A DNA stretch of 64,000 nt from Protonemura montana (lineage: Eukaryota; Arthropoda; Insecta; Plecoptera; Nemouridae): assembly GCA_947568835.1 (NCBI GenBank), contig OX387603.1:6174701-6238700 (forward strand), written 5' to 3'. The position numbers and the translations under genes were made by a program. Shown here one piece after another: positions 1,213 to 58,232 of this stretch (position 1 is the first letter of the stretch; the number at the start of each line of letters is the position of its first letter). A model generated the notes under the pieces. The model did not search any database, had not been told where the DNA came from, and was given only the letters and a program-made list of their open reading frames with translations.

Positions 1213-1310
1213 ATTGCCGTCGACGGCTGCTGGAGACCTGCTCTTGTGAAAGACCAACAACAGAGACTGCCCCCGAGTTTCCTTTCACAAAGCTTGTCAT
1301 GTCTACTGAA
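1213..1310 (+). CDS. Possible internal exon, unidentified
   Basis: A pyrimidine-rich acceptor (TTCTTTCATCTAG) precedes the segment and a GTGAGC donor follows at 1311. One frame reads about 32 residues containing CRRRLLETCSCERP and ending TKLVMSTEG. It may belong to the same gene as the exon-like segment at 295-492, because the strand and splice quality agree, but no family was recognised and the reading phase between the two was not established. Between them (493-1212) I see nothing definite. Confidence 0.25.
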
Positions 1311-1664
1311 GGTGAGCAATTCAGAGCAATGCTAGATATAAATATTTTAACAATTGTCACTATTTTTTACCTCAGTTAAATGAAGATTTCTAGAGCATAC
1401 ATTTTACAACTAATTCTAGACAAAGACTGTTAAAATTTTAATGAAACATAAAAAAGTTAGACCTTTATTTAATAAACACTTTCTGTATTACCTGTAAGAG
1501 TGCCTTTGTGATTGCATGCCAGGTATGTTTGAACCAGCTTTTAGCCAGTTTTAACTGGACGATGAGCATGCCGTGACATTTGCAAAAGGATTTTTGAAAA
1601 ATAAACCAGATGGATGGCCAGCGACACATTTTTTTTCGCTAATTATCGATATCGTTACACTTTC

Positions 1665-2244: not shown

Positions 2245-2645
2245 AATAAAACAAGATGTAAATAAATCACTTCTAGCAGTAATATTTATGTGTGCATCCT
2301 GATAGGTAGGCCACTCATCATACACGTGTGCACTGACGTTGTGTCTACAATCCAGGCGTTGGGAGTCAAGGAACCAGGGGAATTCTCAAAAGGAAATCAA
2401 GAAAAACGTGGTAAGTTTCCATCGTAGGTTCAAACAGGGGGTTGAATTCAACTCCCCTTGAAATTCTACCCCTGTTGACACCCCTCGCGGGTCAAAATCC
2501 ATCATTTGAATTTCCACTCAAAAAATATTTAAAAAATCAATGGACGTTTTTTACGTTTCTTACATTTTTTCTTGATTTTTGAAGATTCGCCTATACTGTG
2601 GTCTATGGGGTAGTTTGCACTCCCGAACACGATGGGCTATTATGG
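2245..2645 (+). repeat. Dispersed repeat R1, upstream copy
   Basis: About 400 bp here are clearly similar, in the same orientation, to 6570-6985. Shared landmarks are ATAAAACAAGATRTAAATAA, CCAGGCGTTGGGAGTC, AACTCCCCTTGAAATTCTA, a CGCGGGTC motif and GATTCGCCYATACTG. The two copies flank the tRNA-like cluster. Part of the unit recurs again at 7075-7275 and 7365-7420. No coding potential was seen. Confidence 0.75.
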
Positions 2646-3039
2646 GCACGATTCCGTTATTTTATAGTTTCAAGGTTGGCAGCTCAGCAAGGTGGGTACA
2701 CGGGATACCGACCGATGGCCGTGATTTATCGACATTTTAATTGATCAAGTACATTTGATATCCAACAGACGGCGTTTGCGATCACTTTGTGCTTTAACTC
2801 GACTGCTGGTTCGGTAATACTTGTTTGGTATGTTTGACCAGGGGACCTGACTGCGAGCAACGGGGTTCGACTGGCGTTCCTCCAGTCGGACTTCAAGGCT
2901 TGCATTTTCGCGTTAGATCGTGGCAACTGGTGAGAGCCCATTTTTTGGAGTGGCCGCGTGCCTCAGCACTGCTTGGTGTTGCGGTCAGGTCCGGCATTTA
3001 CACATTGTGTAAAAGCGAAGCCTTCTTTCTCTATTAGCG

Positions 3040-3165
3040 CATGGTTGATATTGTGGTGGTGGTGATATTGGTGATGGTGGTGGTGGTGATGTTGGTAATG
3101 TTGGTGATGTTGGTGATGATGGTATAGCTGTTGGTGGTTGTAATAGTGTGGGTGTTATTAGTGTA
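3040..3165 (+). repeat. GGTGAT/GTTGGTGAT simple repeat
   Basis: A purine/pyrimidine-skewed tract made of GGTGGTGAT, GTTGGTGAT and GATGGT variants, ending around TAATAGTGTGGGTG. It is an imperfect microsatellite. The surrounding DNA from 2646 to 3480 holds no gene that I can support. Confidence 0.8.
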
Positions 3166-3481
3166 CGTTGACTTCTTTATATTGCTTGTGGTAATGATTG
3201 TTAATGGCTATTTATATGTCGCATGATTATATAATATAAATAGAATTCCGAATAACTCGTGTATAAATTAAATTTTCCCCCTTTTCCTACTTCTTCTTAT
3301 ATATTTAGATTCCTTTTCCTTTTAGTATCAGTAGCCAATTTTTCATTTAGCGTTCCCCACCAAAGCCAATATTGTTTCGTCGATGCTATCACCCCCTGGT
3401 AGCCAGGCTAGTAACTAAAACATAATTTGAAATTTTTTTTCTTGCCCTGGAGGATGATTGGTGTGATTAAAAAAAGATGTA

Positions 3482-3558
3482 GGCAACGAGGATCGAACGC
3501 AGGACGTTTGATGCCTGATGCACCCACATAAACCGCTCGACCACAAGACCCGCTCTCC
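3482..3558 (-). repeat. Degenerate tRNA-like sequence 1
   Basis: On the minus strand a good A box (TGGTCGAGCGG) is followed about 40 nt later by a good B box (GCGTTCGATCC). The acceptor and T stems do not pair well, so this looks like a tRNA pseudogene or a tRNA-derived SINE head, not a working tRNA. It is the first of eleven in one orientation. Confidence 0.55.
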
Positions 3559-3848
3559 ATGATGCGTTTTTCTGGGATACAAAAACTGTTCAACTGTGAC
3601 AACTCTGTCAAAATATCCGAAAAAAATCTCAAACACTGCCTCCATGATTTCCAATAAAAGATATTTCGACGAAACATTATAAACATCAGCTTCAGTATTG
3701 CCCATCATCATACAAAATAAAAAATACATTCGAAGTCTTGCACAGTTTACTCATCCTGGATCTTTCACTATGTATGAACAGACTGTCGTATAACATCACT
3801 TGGACACCCAGGACGACGGTGCCATACTCTGGCGCTGGCCCTTAGGTC

Positions 3849-4121
3849 TAGCATCAAGCGTATAGGAACGATTATAATGAGTGTTACGCATCATCAGCGC
3901 CACCTGTTGACAGGATTTTGTACTACACTTTGGACAAATATGTTGATATTTTCCTGCTGTATTTTCATGGTTTTTTTTCCGATTAGTTAATGAATTAGAT
4001 TAAAAATCAGACTTGGCAAATGTCTTCAATTATTACCAGAGTATAGTACAAAATTCTGCCAACAGGTGGCGCTGATGATGCTTAACACTCATTAATATCG
4101 TTCCTATATACTTGATGGTAA
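3849..4121. mobile_element. Foldback/MITE-like element with long inverted repeats
   Basis: About 90 bp at 3849-3938 are repeated in inverted orientation at about 4032-4121. By eye the arms are roughly 85% alike; both carry GCGCCACCTGTTG (or its complement), GTACTA/TAGTAC AAAAT and the CATCAA outer end. About 90 bp of unrelated AT-rich DNA separate the arms. There is no ORF. The layout is that of a non-autonomous foldback element; no certain target duplication was identified. The hairpin array starts directly to its right. Confidence 0.7.
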
Positions 4122-4135
4122 ACGTAGGAGCCCGG

Positions 4136-4390
4136 GTGCGTGAGCGACTGGCGCTCCGCGCCAGTCGCTCACGCACGCTGCTGGGCCCTGGCGCTTCGCG
4201 CCAGGGCCCAGCAGCGTGCCGGTGCGCCCGTGCACCTGAGCGCGCTTCGCGCGCTCAGGTGCACGGGCGCACCGGTGGGCATCCAAGCGCGCCAAGCGCG
4301 CTTGGACGCTCACGCGCGCGAAGCGCGCGTGAGCGCTATAAAATTGCAGAGCGCGACTGGCGCGGAGCGCCAGTTGCGCTCTGCAATTTT
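4136..4390. repeat. Array of six consecutive perfect hairpins with 3-nt loops
   Basis: Six inverted repeats lie almost end to end. Stems and loops are: 4136-4154/4158-4176, 19 bp, loop TCC; 4173-4194/4198-4219, 22 bp, loop TTC; 4220-4245/4249-4274, 26 bp, loop TTC; 4282-4292/4296-4306, 11 bp, loop CAA; 4307-4319/4323-4335, 13 bp, loop GAA; 4340-4363/4367-4390, 24 bp with one mismatch, loop GGA. Five of the six are perfect. Stem tips are all GCGC-rich and the region is far richer in GC than its surroundings. ORFs across it are by-products of the palindromes. I know no element family with exactly this structure. Confidence 0.95.
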
Positions 4391-4465
4391 CGTGGTATCT
4401 ACACTGTGCGCTGAAAAAAAAAAGAGGTAGTTATTTGAATTGTCAGAGTCAGAACTGCGGTAGTT

Positions 4466-4551
4466 GTGCGGACGGGATTCGAACCCGGGATCCCGGCAAT
4501 CTCATGATCATTAACAAGAGGTAGTGCCTTGTACCGAGCGACCACGCGGAC
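4466..4551 (-). repeat. Degenerate tRNA-like sequence 2
   Basis: The minus strand reads GTCCGCG then TGGTCGCTCGG (A box) and, about 50 nt on, GGGTTCGAATCCC, a perfect B box with a mostly paired T stem. The spacing suggests a long variable arm, as in Ser/Leu tRNAs. The acceptor ends do not pair. Confidence 0.6.
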
Positions 4552-4654
4552 ATCTAGTTGTAGAGGCATTTTTATGGTATATAATTTCTTCAGACTGCAG
4601 CTACCATATGTGAATAATTTGAATTTCGTATTCCAATAGAAAAAATATCCTCTC

Positions 4655-4731
4655 GGTGAGTGGGATCGAACCAGGTCACAATATAGCTTGATGGTTTCGA
4701 AGTAACGACATGTCCATTGTGCTACGCAGAC
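4655..4731 (-). repeat. Degenerate tRNA-like sequence 3
   Basis: The minus strand begins GTCTGCG, has A box TAGCACAATGG and B box GGTTCGATCCC, and is followed by a T-run (ATTTTTTC) that could serve as a Pol III terminator. The start resembles copy 2 (GTCCGCG), which suggests common descent. Confidence 0.6.
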
Positions 4732-5212
4732 GGTCGCCCCTGCTGTGGTAAACTGAATATATTTTAATTTCATATCTGATTTCCCTGTTTACCGGGTTGA
4801 CTATAGGCACATGTCACTGACGGCACTCCATGTATACTACGGTTCGGAGTCGCATTCTTCTTTGCGTTTCAGTGAACTATCATTTAAGAAATTCAAGATA
4901 TTATGACCGACTATGACAGACTTACGCAGCGAGCAAGAACTGGACCTGACCCCCGCACCAAGTAATGCAGGGACAATCGTCCACTCCTAAGATACGGGCT
5001 ACCACCAGTTGCCGCGATCTAGCGTGAAAGTGTCAGCTGATAGCGCCCTCTGCAGGGACGCGAGCCACACCCAGTTGCTGGTTTGTCGTTTTTTTTTTTG
5101 CCTTCTTATCCGACCCCGGCAGCATGGAGATCGCTTCACACTACATCGCCTCTGCCATGCACTATCAAAGGTTGTGCAGCCCGTTGCAAGCTATGTCGCG
5201 TAGAACAAAAAG

Positions 5213-5290
5213 CGGAGCGGCCAGGAGTCGAATTTGGTCTCATCCGGTAAGTTCATACGAGGAGCGACTTTTGATATCGGCCATCGAGAC
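5213..5290 (-). repeat. Degenerate tRNA-like sequence 4
   Basis: The minus strand begins GTCTCGA then TGGCCGATAT (A-box-like) and carries B box AATTCGACTCC. Its 3' end runs CCGCTTTTTGTTC, a T5 Pol III-type terminator shared with copies 8 and 9. Confidence 0.5.
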
Positions 5291-5349
5291 GAGATGATTG
5301 TGTGTGGAACAAAGAGATACATGAAAAGCAGAAGCCGCTTCCAAAACTG

Positions 5350-5809: not shown

Positions 5810-5897
5810 TGATATCACCTGACAGATTTGTTTGAAACAAGTGATGCAATCTGTCTCTCAGAACAAATACCTGTTGCTACTTTCTGAAGAACAAAAA

Positions 5898-5978
5898 GCG
5901 AAGCTGACAGGATTCGAACCCGGTCAAGTTCGGATTGACTTGCCGAGTAGCGACTCTTCCAAACAGCTACCGTGACGT
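5898..5978 (-). repeat. Degenerate tRNA-like sequence 8
   Basis: The minus strand has A box TAGCTGTTTGG inside a TAGC/GCTA D-stem, a CAAGT/ACTTG arm and a perfect B box GGGTTCGAATCC, followed by CGCTTTTTGTTC, the T5 terminator shared with copies 4 and 9. Confidence 0.6.
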
Positions 5979-6130
5979 GATAAATACGTAGGGAAATAAG
6001 AGACATATGAATTGCAGAAAACGGCTTCAGTGTAATGAAAATAGTACTCTGTGAGTTTGATGGATGAACCCGTGATGCAACACTTGCAGCATACAATGAA
6101 TACCAGTTGCCACTTGATGAAGAACAAAAA

Positions 6131-6212
6131 GTGGACCACGCAGGAATCGAACCATTGCCACTTACTTTGAACACTTGCAGAAGTGACCGTCCCGCTCGGC
6201 CTCCGATTAACG
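6131..6212 (-). repeat. Degenerate tRNA-like sequence 9
   Basis: The minus strand has A box AGGCCGAGCGG and B box TGGTTCGATTCC and ends ACTTTTTGTTCTTC. The terminator and the downstream AGTRGCAACWGGTATT sequence are shared with copy 8, so the duplicated unit includes flanking DNA as well as the tRNA-like part. Confidence 0.6.
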
Positions 6213-6347
6213 CCCAATACTGGAGGAAATAACATGTACTTGAATAGCAGCTGGCAGGCAATACACCATGGAGAAGAGAGGAAAGTTTTCTCTGTAACGA
6301 TTGATACATGTCCTGCAGGTATATACACACATGGAATGATATCATGT

Positions 6348-6426
6348 AACTTACCTGATTCGAACCAGCGACCCTCTGCATCTTGGCGCTGGCACGAGAG
6401 CGCTTGTAACTGGCAGCCAAACGGAC
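6348..6426 (-). repeat. Degenerate tRNA-like sequence 10
   Basis: The minus strand begins GTCCGTT, continues GGCTGCCAGTTACAAGCGC and carries B box GGTTCGAATC. The A box is weak. Confidence 0.45.
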
Positions 6427-6499
6427 GCTCTGGAGGACGGCGAATGTTTCTTGACAATACTTTAAAAATCTTGGTAGGTGATTGTTTCTAAGTTAAAAA

Positions 6500-6575
6500 T
6501 AGTGTACCAAGTGGGATACGAACTCGGCCCCGTTTCTCCTCCGTTCCGTTATCTCATACCTTTCGCAAGAAGTAA
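6500..6575 (-). repeat. Degenerate tRNA-like sequence 11
   Basis: Only the B box (GAGTTCGTATCCC on the minus strand) is convincing; the A box is eroded. It is the last member of the series, next to the second R1 copy. Confidence 0.35.
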
Positions 6576-6985
6576 ATAAAACAAGATATAAATAAATCGC
6601 ATCTAGCAGTGAATCCTGATGGGTAGGCTACACCATGTCTATGTCTATGTCCATGTCTATGGGGTAGGCATTGTACACAAATGCGCTCATGTCATGTCTA
6701 CAGACAGCCCAGGCGTTGGGAGTCTAGGAACTCGGAGATTTCTCAAAAAGAAATCAAGAAAAGCGTGGTAAGTTTCCATTGTAGGTTCAAACAGAGGTTG
6801 CATTCAACTCCCCTTGAAATTCTATCCCTGTTGACACCCCTTCGCGGGTCTAAATCCGTCACTTGAATTTCCACTAAAAAATATTGAAAAAATCAATGGA
6901 CGTATGTTTTTTCTTGATTTTTTAAAGATTCGCCCATACTGTAGTCTATGGGGTAGTTTGCACCCCCGAACATAATGAGCTATTT
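6570..6985 (+). repeat. Dispersed repeat R1, downstream copy
   Basis: A direct repeat of 2245-2645 with the same order of landmarks, including ATAAAACAAGATATAAATAA and CCAGGCGTTGGGAGTCTAGG. A short CCATGTCTATGT microsatellite has expanded at about 6635-6665. The 3' half (from about 6790) is also the first monomer of the 288-bp tandem array. Confidence 0.75.
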
Positions 6986-7810: not shown

Positions 7811-8819
7811 CAAAAGTTGTATAGTATGGCAGTATAGATAGCTGGTCTTGTGCTTTATCATCCCTATAATAATTACGGGGTTCCGTTGTACGTTTAGGTG
7901 TTAAAAAGTGAGGAATAAAATGGGAGGAATTCTAATTTATTCTAATTTATTCTAATTTAGAGCAATTGCGTGTTATGGATGCGATGTGTTGACTGGGTGC
8001 CTGTTGATCGCGTTATAGATTTTGCGAGCTAAGTATCCACTAGTGTCCCCCTCCTGCTACAACTCCGCCAGTGTCAGCGTTTGGTGACACCTTGGTGGCA
8101 CCTCTGGGTGGCACATTTGCGTGGATTTGTCGTCGGAACCGGTCGGAACAATGATTCGTAAGGAATAGAAATACGAAAGAAAAAAATATAGAAATACGTT
8201 CGATTATTTAAAATTTTACCTGCAAATACTGTTATATAGTTGAACAGTTGTAAACTGTAAATTTAGACTACGAAGTTCTAATTTTAAGATACCTCATACC
8301 ATAGAAGAAAGACATTAGGCTCTGCTTTAGGTTATATACTGTTATTTAAGGTTATGTTTTACATTCAATCAATTGGATCGTAATTATAATTACGATTGTG
8401 TTAGATATATATTTTTTTTAAATTCTTTTCAAAGCCGCTTTGATTCAGGTATCTACGACTGTTTGTTATGTATGTTATACCTTACTGTATTACTAGAAAT
8501 ACCAACTGACACTACACCAAATACCTTTAAGCAAGTGATACATTCGGTCAATACCTTTGATTAAAGATAGCTTATTCTTACTCTAGTTACTCTAGTTATT
8601 CTAGTTATTCTAACTCTTATATTCTATGTAAATACAAGGCAGTGTATATTTCTTAGGCTCAACAGTTCACGTGAAAGTATATTCAAACTTAATTAGATAC
8701 GGATAAAATCATAGAAAAATGATTTTATTCCATGATACAATGGTCATGGACTCCAAAGAGCTATTTTTCCATTCTTTCATTACCTTAAGACACCATATTC
8801 CATACCAATAAGTTAATAA
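7811..8819. other. Gene-free stretch before the zinc-finger exon
   Basis: AT-rich DNA with two small tandem tracts: three copies of TTCTAATTTA near 7930-7962 and four of a TTACTCTAG-type unit near 8578-8615. No exon was recognised, although the 5' end and promoter of the zinc-finger gene may lie here. Confidence 0.5.
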
Positions 8820-8837: not shown

Positions 8838-9809
8838 GGTAGCATCAGAGATAAAAGCTCTAGTAAAATCTCTGTTAGCATCTTCCGCTGCTCACGATGT
8901 ATGTTGGCCTTTACTAGTAAAACGAATCGCGACCGCCATGAGATCCTTTCTTGTACCCAACGTCTTTTCGACGAGCCTGTGATTCATGTGTGGCCGCCTA
9001 AAGATTCCCACAAGTGCACGAAATGCAGCTTCACCACGAAAAAAATTTCTAAATTCAAGAGGCACGTTTCAACTCACAGAACCGAGATCTCCTTTACATG
9101 TCCTCATTGTGAGTACAAGACCAGTTCTAAGAGCAAGTTTGTCAGGCATCTCGTTAGACACTCAAAAGTCAAGATCATTGCTTGCCCATATTGCGACTTC
9201 AACGCTGAAAATATGAGCAGCATGTCAAGGCACAAGAGCCTTCACAGAAGAGAACTTCTTTCGTGCCAAAAGTGCAGCTTCTGTATTAACAACAGGAGCA
9301 TTTTTAAAAATCACATGCTAACTCACAAAAGCCCTAAAAAAGATCTGCTCAGTTGCAAAGTGTGCAGCTTTTCCACAATTTACGCTAGCAAACTCTCACA
9401 ACACGAGACTACTCACACCAATGAGCGCAAATTTGCCTGCACTCAGTGTGTCTACAAAGCTAATACTCCATTTCTCTTGGCAACCCATCTCAAAAGGCAC
9501 AGTGATAGAAGGGACTATGAATGCACTTTATGTAACTACAGGGGCTTACAAAAAGTACATATATACGTGCACATGCAAATGCACGCCCAAGATAAACCAT
9601 ACCAGTGTGGAGAGTGCAAATACCGTGGCAGAACAAAAGAACACTTGAGCAGACACAGTCGCTACAAGCACTTAAAGGAACGTCCATTTGCCTGCGCCTT
9701 ATGTAAACTCACTTTTGTAGAGACTGGCACGTTGAACCGGCATTTGCGTCGCACACATGAAATCACTGACATGTGTCGCCAGCAGAATATCACCAGAAGA
9801 ATTATGTAG
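8838..9809 (+). CDS. C2H2 zinc-finger protein, about ten fingers
   Basis: One open exon encodes a chain of C2H2 fingers, probably a sequence-specific DNA-binding nuclear protein. The finger starts are CSRC, CTKC, CPHC, CPYC, CQKC, CKVC, CTQC, CTLC, CGEC and CALC, with histidine pairs such as RHVSTH, RHLVRH and HLKRH. The first finger is unusual, ending H-x4-C (HEILSC). Many finger linkers are close to the short TH/RH-x5 type, and the fingers have aromatic Y/F residues two or three after the second Cys (CEYK, CDFN, CNYR), a pattern common in REST-like multi-finger proteins. An in-frame ATG lies at 8820, but TATTTCTTGCAG just after it is a strong acceptor, so the exon more likely starts at 8838 with upstream exons not found. 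The stop is at 9807-9809. No KRAB, BTB or SET domain was seen. Orthology is not assigned. Confidence 0.85.
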   Translation, partial: GSIRDKSSSKISVSIFRCSRCMLAFTSKTNRDRHEILSCTQRLFDEPVIHVWPPKDSHKCTKCSFTTKKISKFKRHVSTHRTEISFTCPHCEYKTSSKSKFVRHLVRHSKVKIIACPYCDFNAENMSSMSRHKSLHRRELLSCQKCSFCINNRSIFKNHMLTHKSPKKDLLSCKVCSFSTIYASKLSQHETTHTNERKFACTQCVYKANTPFLLATHLKRHSDRRDYECTLCNYRGLQKVHIYVHMQMHAQDKPYQCGECKYRGRTKEHLSRHSRYKHLKERPFACALCKLTFVETGTLNRHLRRTHEITDMCRQQNITRRIM

Positions 9810-10799: not shown

Positions 10800-13700
10800 A
10801 AGTTTGTTTGTTTGTTTGTTTGTTTATTGTTTATTTTCCATTGTAAAAAATGATTACATGCCATGATCGTTGTCACATAAAACAGTAAAAACAGGCTTTG
10901 GAAATTGTCAATTGCTAATTAAAATTTGTACATTGATCATTTTTGTTCTTTCACACAATATTTACAATCGCAACCATTCAGACTAGTATATTCTAAGATA
11001 GTGTAAAACGAATGTTGAATTAAAAAATCTTTGACCATTCCTTTAAAGCTTTCCATGCTAATTGTTTTTTCCTTTATCTTGCGGGGTAATTTATTGTATA
11101 AAATTGGTCCCATAAATGTTACATTCTTTCTCCCTATTTCTAACAAGCTTTTTTTTTGTCGTATATCGTCTTTTTTTCTAGTATTTTTATTGTGAATATT
11201 TTTGTTTTCTTGAAACATGGTCGGGTTGTCTCTAACATATAAAATTGTCTCTAGTATATAAAGGGAAGGTAATGTCAGTATGTTAAGGTCTTTGAACGCT
11301 TTTCTGCATGTGCCTCTTTTCATGATTTTTCCAAGTATTCTTATTGCCCTTTTTTGTTTAATGAATATTTTGTTGGACTCGGCTGATATTCCCCATACCA
11401 TTATCCCATAATTTAATTTCGACTGTATATATGCGTGATACATTAATTTTAGTGTATTTTTGCTAACTTGATGAGATAGTCTTTGTAACATGAAGGATGC
11501 TGTGGCTAACTTTTTGCTTAGGATGTTGATGTGTGCCTTCCATTTTAAATTACCATCTATTTGTATTCCAAGGAAAGGGCTTTGGTACACTACTTTTGCA
11601 TTTAATTTCTTGCTTGACGACACTGTCATTTTTCCTTTGTTTTTGAACACTATGATGTTTGTTTTTTGACAGTTTAGTTTCAGCTTGTTTGGTACGAACC
11701 ATTCGTTCAAGTCTATAAGTGTGCTGTTTACGTTTTTTATTAATGTGTTATCATCGTCAGCGGTCAATAAAATGCTTGTGTCGTCTGCGAATAGAATTGC
11801 TTTCCGGTTGTCATCTCTGATATAATTGGGGAGGTCATTTACGTATAAACTAAAGAGAATTGCCGCTAGTGGGGCGCCTTGCGGGACTCCGGTTTTAATA
11901 TCCTCTAAATCCGATAGCACACAGCCATTATTAGAGTTTATCGACACTCGTTGCTTTCGCCCCGTCAGGTATGACTCGATCCATTCCCCTGTCGTGCCTA
12001 CTATGCCGTATCCTTTTAATTTTTCTAGAAGTATCTTGTGATTTATTGAATCAAAGGCTTTCGATAGATCGCACATGATTGTTGCGATTGCTTTTTTATT
12101 TTCTAGTGCATCAGTGATTTGCCTTATCATACTGACAATTGCTGTATTTGTTGAGCGTCCCTTCCTGAATCCGTGTTGTACTTCGTCTATAATTCTATTA
12201 TTTTCTACATACTCATTTAGTCTGACAAGAAAAGCTTTCTCAAAAATTTTTGCAAAATTTGTTATGAGTGCTATTGGCCGGTAGTTCTGCATCTCTGAGG
12301 TAGCCCCTTTTTTCAGAATCGGTTTGATTATAGTAAGCTTCGCTAACGATGGGAATTCACCTGATCTAAACGAGAAGTTGCAAATTTCTAACAGTGGGTA
12401 GGCTATTTCGTTACATACTCTCTTTATTACTTGGATCGGGACTTCATCCCACCCGGTTGATTTCTTATTTTTCAATTTTGTTATTATTTCTATAATTTCG
12501 GCCCTGTTCGTGTTCCTTAAAGTCATCGTTGTTTCGATTCTTGACATTCCCGTCTTCATTTTGGTGAGGCATTCATCCAGGGTATCTTCCATGTCATCTG
12601 TTGTTTTTTTTGCTATTGTCGCAAAAAAATTGTTGAAGTGGTTTGCCACCTCTTTTGCGTCTTTGATTTCTTTTTCCTTGATTTCTAGGACGATGTTCTT
12701 TGTTCGATTTTTCTTGAATTTTCCAGTGTGTGCGTGTATTATTGTCCAAGCCGCCTTCATCTTATTGTTTGCTTTATTGATAAAGCTGTCATTGCTTTTC
12801 TTTTTTGCTCGACGTGTTTGCTTGGTGACCATTTTCTGTGCTGCTTTAAGATCTTTTTTAAATCTTGCGCCGCCCTTTCTCCTAGTGAGTATCAATAATC
12901 TCCGTTTTAATTCGCATGTCAATTTTATTTCGTCTGTTATCCAGTCATTATTCTTCTTTCGTTGTCTGACTTGACATCGTTTCTTCGGAAAGTGTTTGTT
13001 AAAGGTGTCTAGAAAGATTTCCAGGAAATTTCGGAACTTTTCATCTGTGGTGGTTCTCGCTAAGACACCTTCCCAATGTTTCCCTCCAATATCTTTTGCA
13101 AAGTTTTCCAGGTTTACATCGCTTATATTTCTAGTGTAGGTTAACTCTCGTTTTTTAATTATCGGTGAGATTGTGATGTTTACCAGTAGTCCCACGTGGT
13201 CAGATAGCCCAGCTTCAATGGGGTGTGGCTCTTCGTCTAGTGTGAAGTTGGTAATAATGTTATCTATCGTTGTTCTTGTCCCTTCCGTAATTCTGGTGGG
13301 AAAATTGACATTGGCCCACATATTAATGTCTGCGAGGAGGTCTTCAAACTTCTCTCTGGAGTAGCTGTTTGTGTTTCCTAGCAGGTCAATGTTTATGTCA
13401 CCTATGAGCACTATTCTTTTATCTTCTTTTTTGAGTTGCTTTATTAGTCGTTTTATTTTAATAATGAAGGCGTTGATATTTTTACTATCGGGTGTCCGGT
13501 ACACCACAATAATAATTATCGGGTTGCTTTCTTTCAATTCGATGCTACATACTTCGAATACCCTTTCTTTTGCTAATTGGTCTATGTCAGGTCGGTTTAT
13601 CCACTTTAATGTGGTGTCGCGGATGTATATAGCAGTCCCGCCACCTTTTGCCTTGTTTCGCGCATAGCATGCGGCGAGTTCATAATCTCCAATTATTACT

Positions 13701-14122
13701 GCGTTCTCGCGTCCTCGTGCCAGCCAGTGTTCAGAGAGACATAAAATATCAATTTCCTTTTCTGGTGTTTGTGAGTCAATGAAAACTTCTAGCTCCTCTA
13801 CCTTGTTTTGGACACTACATATGTTTAGGTGCATTATAGTAATGTTTGTTGACTTACGTGTATCAGTCTTCTTTTCTTTATTCTTATTCTTATATTGATC
13901 AGTCTTCTTCTTATCAGTCTTACTTGAATCAGTCTTCTTTTTGTTTTTGTCAGTCTCTTCAGTTTCTTCAGTCTCTTCAGTTTCTTCAGTCTTTTTTGTC
14001 TCTTCAGTCTCTTCTTTGTCTTTCTCCTGCTTTTCAGTAGTTTTTTCATATGTATATGGTAACGTTGTTTCACTAACGTGTGTGACTGTGCTAATCTTGC
14101 GTGGCCTATTAATAAGTAATTG
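10800..14122 (-). mobile_element. LINE (Jockey/CR1-group non-LTR retrotransposon), ORF intact
   Basis: The element runs right to left. Its 3' end is marked by a tandem tail, five or more copies of TTTG on the plus strand at about 10802-10826, typical of CR1/Jockey-type LINEs that end in short repeats. The coding part is uninterrupted. The 5' limit is uncertain: an in-frame stop at 14123-14125 precedes the open frame, and no separate ORF1 with zinc knuckles is visible, so the copy is probably 5'-truncated or its ORF1 is reduced to the acidic leader. No target duplication was found by eye. Confidence 0.9.
10937..13834 (-). CDS. LINE ORF2: apurinic-like endonuclease plus reverse transcriptase
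   Basis: This 965-codon ORF encodes the protein that nicks target DNA and copies the LINE RNA into the nick. The endonuclease occupies about residues 1-220 (HLNICSVQNK, LSEHW, GGGTAIYI, IVVYRTPDS, GDINID, SDHVGL). The reverse transcriptase spans about residues 450-750, with NYRPIAL, CDLSKAFDSINH, GVPQGAPLAAILFSLYVNDL and the catalytic FADD box. The C-terminal part has W-G and PRKIKE motifs usual in this clade. The frame is open for a further 96 codons upstream of the ATG at 13834, to 14122, and reads a Thr/Glu/Lys-rich leader with repeated TEE units. An intact ORF points to recent activity. The clade name is inferred from motifs, not from a tree. Confidence 0.93.
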   Translation of the reverse strand: MHLNICSVQNKVEELEVFIDSQTPEKEIDILCLSEHWLARGRENAVIIGDYELAACYARNKAKGGGTAIYIRDTTLKWINRPDIDQLAKERVFEVCSIELKESNPIIIIVVYRTPDSKNINAFIIKIKRLIKQLKKEDKRIVLIGDINIDLLGNTNSYSREKFEDLLADINMWANVNFPTRITEGTRTTIDNIITNFTLDEEPHPIEAGLSDHVGLLVNITISPIIKKRELTYTRNISDVNLENFAKDIGGKHWEGVLARTTTDEKFRNFLEIFLDTFNKHFPKKRCQVRQRKKNNDWITDEIKLTCELKRRLLILTRRKGGARFKKDLKAAQKMVTKQTRRAKKKSNDSFINKANNKMKAAWTIIHAHTGKFKKNRTKNIVLEIKEKEIKDAKEVANHFNNFFATIAKKTTDDMEDTLDECLTKMKTGMSRIETTMTLRNTNRAEIIEIITKLKNKKSTGWDEVPIQVIKRVCNEIAYPLLEICNFSFRSGEFPSLAKLTIIKPILKKGATSEMQNYRPIALITNFAKIFEKAFLVRLNEYVENNRIIDEVQHGFRKGRSTNTAIVSMIRQITDALENKKAIATIMCDLSKAFDSINHKILLEKLKGYGIVGTTGEWIESYLTGRKQRVSINSNNGCVLSDLEDIKTGVPQGAPLAAILFSLYVNDLPNYIRDDNRKAILFADDTSILLTADDDNTLIKNVNSTLIDLNEWFVPNKLKLNCQKTNIIVFKNKGKMTVSSSKKLNAKVVYQSPFLGIQIDGNLKWKAHINILSKKLATASFMLQRLSHQVSKNTLKLMYHAYIQSKLNYGIMVWGISAESNKIFIKQKRAIRILGKIMKRGTCRKAFKDLNILTLPSLYILETILYVRDNPTMFQENKNIHNKNTRKKDDIRQKKSLLEIGRKNVTFMGPILYNKLPRKIKEKTISMESFKGMVKDFLIQHSFYTILEYTSLNGCDCKYCVKEQK

Positions 14123-58152: not shown

Positions 58153-58232
58153 AGCACGACCTCTGGCTTCTTGCCAGAGGCAAGAAGCTTCTTCTCAGCT
58201 TCTTCTTGCAGAGGCTTCTTCTCAGCTACATC

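Follow-up and report, generated by a model that had tools for sequence, protein, structure and literature searches.

A dispersed repeat of Protonemura montana carries six adjacent hairpins with conserved C(GRA)G tips, a putative folded-DNA module

The window, a 64,000-nt stretch of contig OX387603.1 from Protonemura montana, carries six side-by-side hairpins at positions 4136-4390, each closed by a loop of 3 nt (Table 1). This array is real as originally predicted, except that its third stem has 27 bp rather than 26. Hairpins 1 and 2 overlap by 4 nt and hairpins 2 and 3 by 1 nt. When folded as single-stranded DNA, the segment 4120-4405 reaches -170.6 kcal/mol versus -83.1 +/- 4.1 kcal/mol for 200 dinucleotide shuffles (z = -21). 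Outside the array the window holds one perfect stem of at least 10 bp with a 3-nt loop, at 58166-58188. The suggestion that pieces are reused between hairpins was correct: a 25-nt segment of hairpin 1 recurs in inverted orientation in hairpin 6 with 96% identity. The imperfect inverted repeat adjoining the array on its left may be a foldback or MITE-like unit in its own right; used as a query it gave 483 first-look candidates, of which 40 were scored, with nearly full-length reverse-strand matches at 72-77% identity. The window also encodes C2H2 zinc fingers and a LINE-type frame of 965 aa (10937-13834, minus strand) whose domains include an endonuclease and a reverse transcriptase, all of which give it a eukaryotic character.

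Table 1. Coordinates in the window of the hairpins and of the repeat segments around them.
Feature	Position	Characteristics
Hairpin 1	4136..4176	19 bp; loop TCC (minus strand GGA); tip CTGGCGC/GCGCCAG
Hairpin 2	4173..4219	22 bp; loop TTC; orientation differs among copies
Hairpin 3	4219..4275	27 bp; loop TTC; tip GCGCGC/GCGCGC
Hairpin 4	4282..4306	11 bp in the window; loop CAA; stem longer in most other copies
Hairpin 5	4307..4335	13 bp; loop GAA
Hairpin 6	4340..4390	24 bp including one mismatch; loop GGA; related to a genome-wide hairpin family
Imperfect inverted repeat adjoining the array on the left	3840..4125	Arms 76% complementary; high copy
Repeat portion common to other copies	2502..5334	Offsets -1618 to 1214 from 4120; about 87-95% identity; 97% to L032
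Distal repeat portion, terminus ..CATCTAG	5876..6606	Offsets 1756 to 2486; about 74-86% identity to copies

A search of the genome (258 Mb, 34 contigs) with segment 4120-4400 yielded 36 near-full matches on eight contigs, the window included, with 79-100% identity (40 of 162 candidates were scored). Further runs of 3-nt-loop hairpins thus exist in the same genome in the form of other array copies; in 102 kb scanned around the copies there is no second array, just scattered hairpins. The array lies in the interior of a dispersed repeat some 3.9 kb long. In a comparison of twenty 10-kb loci, homology reaches far past the array, its limits in a typical copy lying near -2.1/-2.2 kb and +1.8 kb. 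The outer flanks mostly differ among these 20 loci, those of L048 and L049 being alike over 8.4 kb. Palindromes are hard to sequence, which was counted in favour of an assembly artefact or a product of snap-back synthesis at this locus. We consider either very unlikely, to the point of being negligible, given the number of copies, their spread over eight contigs and their mostly different surroundings. A single-locus snap-back origin is rejected because the block is common to 36 places. The original proposal of strand switching is not supported on this point, since the block and its flanks were inherited within the dispersed repeat rather than built by six local snap-back events; another part of that proposal fares better, as described below.

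Both ends of the repeat were recognised in seven of the 20 loci, where it spans 3605-3990 nt from (C)AGTGTCGGACTGGCC through CATCTA(G). Flanking repeats of 5-6 nt border two of these seven two-ended copies (L040 and L045) and are lacking in four; in L036 a third match, TAGCC, runs into the sequence of the element itself. Helitrons begin with 5' TC, end with 3' CTRR and make no target-site duplication. The ..CTAG end of the repeat does fit, but assignment to Helitrons was rejected on account of its (C)AGTG 5' end and of the flanking repeats of L040 and L045. The end motif CAGTGTCGGACTGGCCAGGGCAGCC is also found in tandem, at spacings of 34 bp or multiples thereof, at C5:921508-921668 and C13:1499782-1500452. 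The copy in the window has diverged: its left end is distinct, and it carries additional sequence past 5334, likewise present in its nearest relative L032. The array seems absent from at least one repeat copy: its flanks lie about 0.2 kb apart at a locus on C3 versus 0.65 kb elsewhere.

The repeat is unlikely to code for protein, and the absence of a gene is likely but not proved. The longest stop-free frames have 112-175 codons in the seven two-ended copies. Some frames of about 100-160 codons recur between copies, the copies themselves being about 90% alike, and six of the recurring frames, taken from L031, L033 and L048, match no Pfam family at an E-value of 0.01. Stretches resembling tRNA by eye are found at 4470-4555 and 4655-4735 of the window and at about 2900-6600 of L048; a few words resembling the B-box occur in them, chiefly on the minus strand. 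ARAGORN found zero tRNA genes in the window and in four loci. Segments resembling 5S rRNA (Rfam RF00001) lie near the repeat but outside it, at 9330-9450 (+) and 1236-1356 (-) of L048 and at 7865-7985 (-) of L033.

Sequence was retrieved for 32 of the 36 array copies. The alignment comprises 29 copies, L029, L049 and L050 being omitted. L016 and L017 were kept in the stem and loop counts and removed from branch counts and flank statistics for poor flank alignment. The window copy lacks a 14-nt stretch that precedes hairpin 5 in L002. In L029, hairpin 5 is enlarged by repeats of a GCGCGCTC-like unit, which suggests slippage at the hairpin.

The original prediction that every loop has 3 nt holds for length, but the loops also follow a rule in sequence: 169 of 171 read GNA on either the plus or the minus strand. 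The two exceptions are CAA in hairpin 4 of the window, where the nearest copy L002 has GAA, and GAC in L027. When all loops are oriented alike, the first base is G in 170/171, the last is A in 170/171 and the middle is A (103) or G (68). Among the 29 aligned copies, the orientation is fixed in hairpins 1, 5 and 6 (TNC on the plus strand in 29/29 for hairpin 1, GNA in 29/29 for hairpin 6). GNA is found on either strand in hairpin 2 (GNA 18, TNC 11), hairpin 3 (GNA 5, TNC 24) and hairpin 4 (GNA 13, TNC 15, CAA 1). The GNA tri-loop is favoured in DNA rather than in RNA. With DNA folding parameters all 64 tri-loops receive equal scores; because the folding model is blind to loop sequence, the stability of GNA loops rests on the literature and on general knowledge.

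The rule extends to related tips throughout the genome. CTGGCGC-NNN-GCGCCAG occurs at 703 sites versus 0 for the reversed pattern, and 680 of them carry GNA, 348 on one strand and 332 on the other. GCGCGC-NNN-GCGCGC occurs at 131 sites versus 34 for its reversed control, with GNA in 107 of the 131 and in 17 + 6 of the control. These sites are related by descent, hence their loops are not independent and no probability is attached to the counts. The variant GACTGGCGC-NNN-GCGCCAGGA, which has a tandem GA/GA mismatch, makes up 566 of the 703 tips, 551 of which have GNA on the same strand. Tandem GA/GA steps are stable DNA features. The tandem GA/GA variant is found in four of the 32 array copies read, so that most genome tips lie outside the array. 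L051-L054 are relatives of hairpin 6 situated outside the repeat, with own flanks that are similar in 4/4 pieces and a tandem GA/GA mismatch on the GAA-loop strand. Among the places listed for C1, some tips form opposite-facing pairs about 0.4-0.6 kb apart and others head-to-tail runs with a spacing of about 1.0 or 1.7-1.8 kb. In the 28.86-30.89 Mb region of C1, tips of the hairpin 6 type form head-to-tail runs with 4-9 tips per run, spaced every 1.7-1.8 kb or so.

The core common to the hairpins is GCGC-GRA-GCGC, and the tips are under near-absolute constraint in the array copies. Hairpin 5 gaps aside, the innermost pair is C:G in every hairpin of the 29 copies. Pairs 1-5 counted from the loop are all invariant, with 0 broken among 855 cells (hairpin 5 is gapped in three copies). 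Over the first 7 bp, 2 of 1197 cells are broken and the mean pairwise difference is 0.009. It rises to 0.072 for pairs 8-13 and to 0.092 from pair 14 outward, compared with 0.068 in the flanks, and beyond the first 7 pairs 73 of 2193 cells are broken. Pairs 8, 9 and 10, in which 19 of 513 cells are broken, exceed the flank mean, with 0.16, 0.14 and 0.09 per site. Little variation is also seen in pairs 11-13 (0.012-0.018), so that quiet positions are not limited to the tip. The tip thus keeps its letters, and much of the outer stem varies while remaining mostly paired. Genome-wide, when at most one mismatch is allowed, 163 of 843 tip sites carry one, which speaks against an absolute constraint. 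A random turn-back after 3 nt, as had been imagined, would not predict tips constrained in sequence, yet these are.

Hundreds of related tips in the genome could provide donors for interlocus homogenisation, in which tips would convert one another and palindromes would be copied in either orientation, leaving tips fixed and loops inverted. Such exchange is visible, perhaps, in hairpin 6 of L016, L017, L019 and L023, which has the GGA variant that characterises the other family. The stems just beyond the tips stay diverse, which would impose very short conversion tracts of about 15 bp, and we give homogenisation only a slim chance of accounting for the tips.

Pairing in the stems is maintained, with covariation of the two arms. 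Standard pairs occupy 98.3% of 3390 pair cells in the 29 aligned copies. Both sides have changed in 24 of 119 pairs versus 8.2 +/- 1.9 in shuffles, none of 500 shuffles reaching 24, and a register shift of 1-3 columns lowers the number of such pairs to 1-4. In hairpin 4, for example, L025 and L027 have TTT/AAA in place of CCA/TGG, and hairpin 5 occurs with CTCACG, CTTACG, CTGTCG or CCCAAG, each with its matching partner. Covarying stems are what a structured RNA would display if the repeat were transcribed and the hairpins were selected as processing sites or small-RNA precursors; the tRNA-like segments and B-box-like words make transcription conceivable. Mismatches are divided between G-T (18) and A-C (21) with no clear strand bias, whereas an RNA made from one strand should tolerate G-U, and the loops of hairpins 2-4 invert freely. 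A search of Rfam 15 at the gathering score found no family inside the element in L048 and L033, the three 5S rRNA matches falling outside; by E-value the L048 element has 12 matches, mostly to miRNA families and all below gathering. We regard selection for an RNA structure as quite unlikely.

The history of the stems was followed by parsimony on a 27-tip tree of the flanks. Terminal branches carry 17 compensated stem changes and 48 single-arm breaks, compared with 16 compensated changes and 11 breaks on internal branches. When all breaks are counted, the ratio of compensated to broken is 17:50 on terminal and 16:11 on internal branches (p = 0.0036). The 17 terminal compensated changes correspond to 14 distinct pair-and-outcome combinations, and the three that recur in two tips may be older single events. 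Terminal branches may also include evolution that preceded insertion. Eight sister pairs differ by 31 single-arm stem changes and 3 compensated ones. Stem substitutions total about 94 on terminal branches versus 154 predicted from the flank rate, and 43 versus 43 on internal branches. If copies with intact stems were the ones that spread, breaks between sisters and compensation on internal branches would be expected. The excess of compensation on older branches is predicted alike by selection in spreading lineages and by slow strand-switching repair. Two observations favour constraint: compensated drift is absent from the tip sequence, and the loop retains its G and its A although its middle base and its orientation vary.

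Loops invert as well. With inversion costed as one step, parsimony on the same tree finds 13 pure loop inversions, a count that exchange between copies could inflate, and two further steps that combine inversion with a substitution. Five inversions are found among the eight sister pairs, in 3 of them, with loop length kept, and hairpin 2 is inverted between the members of a ninth pair, L030/L049. Three simultaneous point changes are not credible as their source. From the sequence comparison, the inversions fit a template switch, or recombination, at DNA that is folded. Inverted loops and compensatory changes of several bases have been attributed to template switch mutations (PMC8794818), and snap-back extension by polymerase theta (PMC11292364) could also give rise to inversions. 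Strand switching thus seems to act on the hairpins, as loops invert between similar copies and stems covary, and to this extent the earlier proposal stands.

Neutral template switching could go further and explain the array with no function at all: stalled replication would copy the other arm, repairing mismatches, generating compensated changes and inverting loops. The 13 inversions and the 17 terminal compensated changes (14 distinct) are in its favour, less than one compensated change being expected by chance in a rough hand estimate. Arm-to-arm copying should, however, allow compensated drift of the tips, where the innermost five pairs are invariant. Nor would it account for the lack of inversion in hairpins 1, 5 and 6 of the aligned copies, or for the predominance of single-arm over compensated changes in sister pairs. 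Template switching as the whole explanation appears unlikely to us, if less so than an RNA role.

Several known systems share features with the array. The early-promoter hairpins of phage N4 have the same C:G-closed 3-nt loop, whose closing pair, 5' G and 3' A are all required for extrusion and stability, and in addition a sheared G:A and extrusion from duplex DNA (PMC4496689). They differ in being phage promoters for the virion RNA polymerase, whereas the array belongs to a nuclear repeat and has six hairpins with stems of 11-27 bp. The template-switch hairpins of Monttinen and Loytynoja (2022) also combine compensatory changes and loop inversions, but they were described in RNA genes; the array has fixed tips and a fixed loop class within a dispersed repeat (PMC8794818). 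Inverted repeats maintained in nematodes likewise conserve structure more than sequence; they are long and associated with gene pairs, and the abstract mentions no rule for tips or loops (PMC1803023). Mitochondrial repetitive hairpin-forming elements, double-hairpin elements and GC clusters are dispersed, often GC-rich, in some cases tandem, and conserve their stems. Substitutions in the sponge elements fall in loops, whereas in the array the loop rule is strict and the outer stems covary (PMC2800124).

The REP and REPIN sequences of bacteria are likewise short dispersed palindromes (PMC3116915). Like the RHE, DHE and REP mobile palindromes, the hairpins studied here are dispersed at many sites. 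REP and REPIN are bacterial and are mobilised by a RAYT protein. As to a mobile unit, the array lies inside the 3.9-kb repeat and the related single hairpins lie in another context, with similar flanks in 4/4. The mini-hairpin d(GCGAAGC), an oligonucleotide motif, has seven letters identical to those at each GAA tip of the array, which is a genomic element; we take it to be the 2-bp hairpin that melts at 76.5 C. This melting temperature is listed for a 2-bp example of an extraordinarily stable DNA hairpin in PMC10527192. Among the literature matches listed for nuclear hairpin arrays in transposons, there is nothing close.

The array is thus real, inherited and spread through the genome, and more regular than the original description had shown. 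We lean, with little more than even confidence, towards the hypothesis that the array is a DNA-hairpin module of the dispersed repeat, with conserved C(GRA)G tips, putatively read or processed in folded form. Each fixed tip GCGC-GRA-GCGC would fold on one strand into a tri-loop hairpin of the C(GNA)G type; small DNA hairpins of this type are exceptionally stable and can extrude from a duplex. A factor of replication, transposition or chromatin, or a nuclease, could then recognise the folded tip or use it as DNA, and the copies that keep intact tips would be those that spread. Replication or repair might switch strand at the folded hairpin, loop inversion being a by-product. The decay of outer stems, with its 48 terminal single-arm breaks, counts against the hypothesis of a hairpin module. 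As far as sequence can tell, the regularity of tips and loops suggests that the cell uses folded DNA or copies along it. A bolder version, which we hold as doubtful though worth stating, is that the folded DNA is the signal of the repeat: the tips would extrude and be read either way by a protein of the host or of the element needed for spread. The GNA strand, together with the tandem GA/GA step in the larger side family, would then define the folded strand, and loop orientation would record how often each hairpin opened.

It has long been asked whether animal-like nuclear genomes make use of hairpin or cruciform DNA. The fixed tip, the DNA-stable loop class and the inverting loops provide a readable evolutionary signature of possible DNA folding. 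If the hypothesis of a hairpin module is right, the repeat would serve as a reporter, natural and present in many copies, of hairpin extrusion and strand switching, and could lead to a protein able to recognise DNA in folded form.
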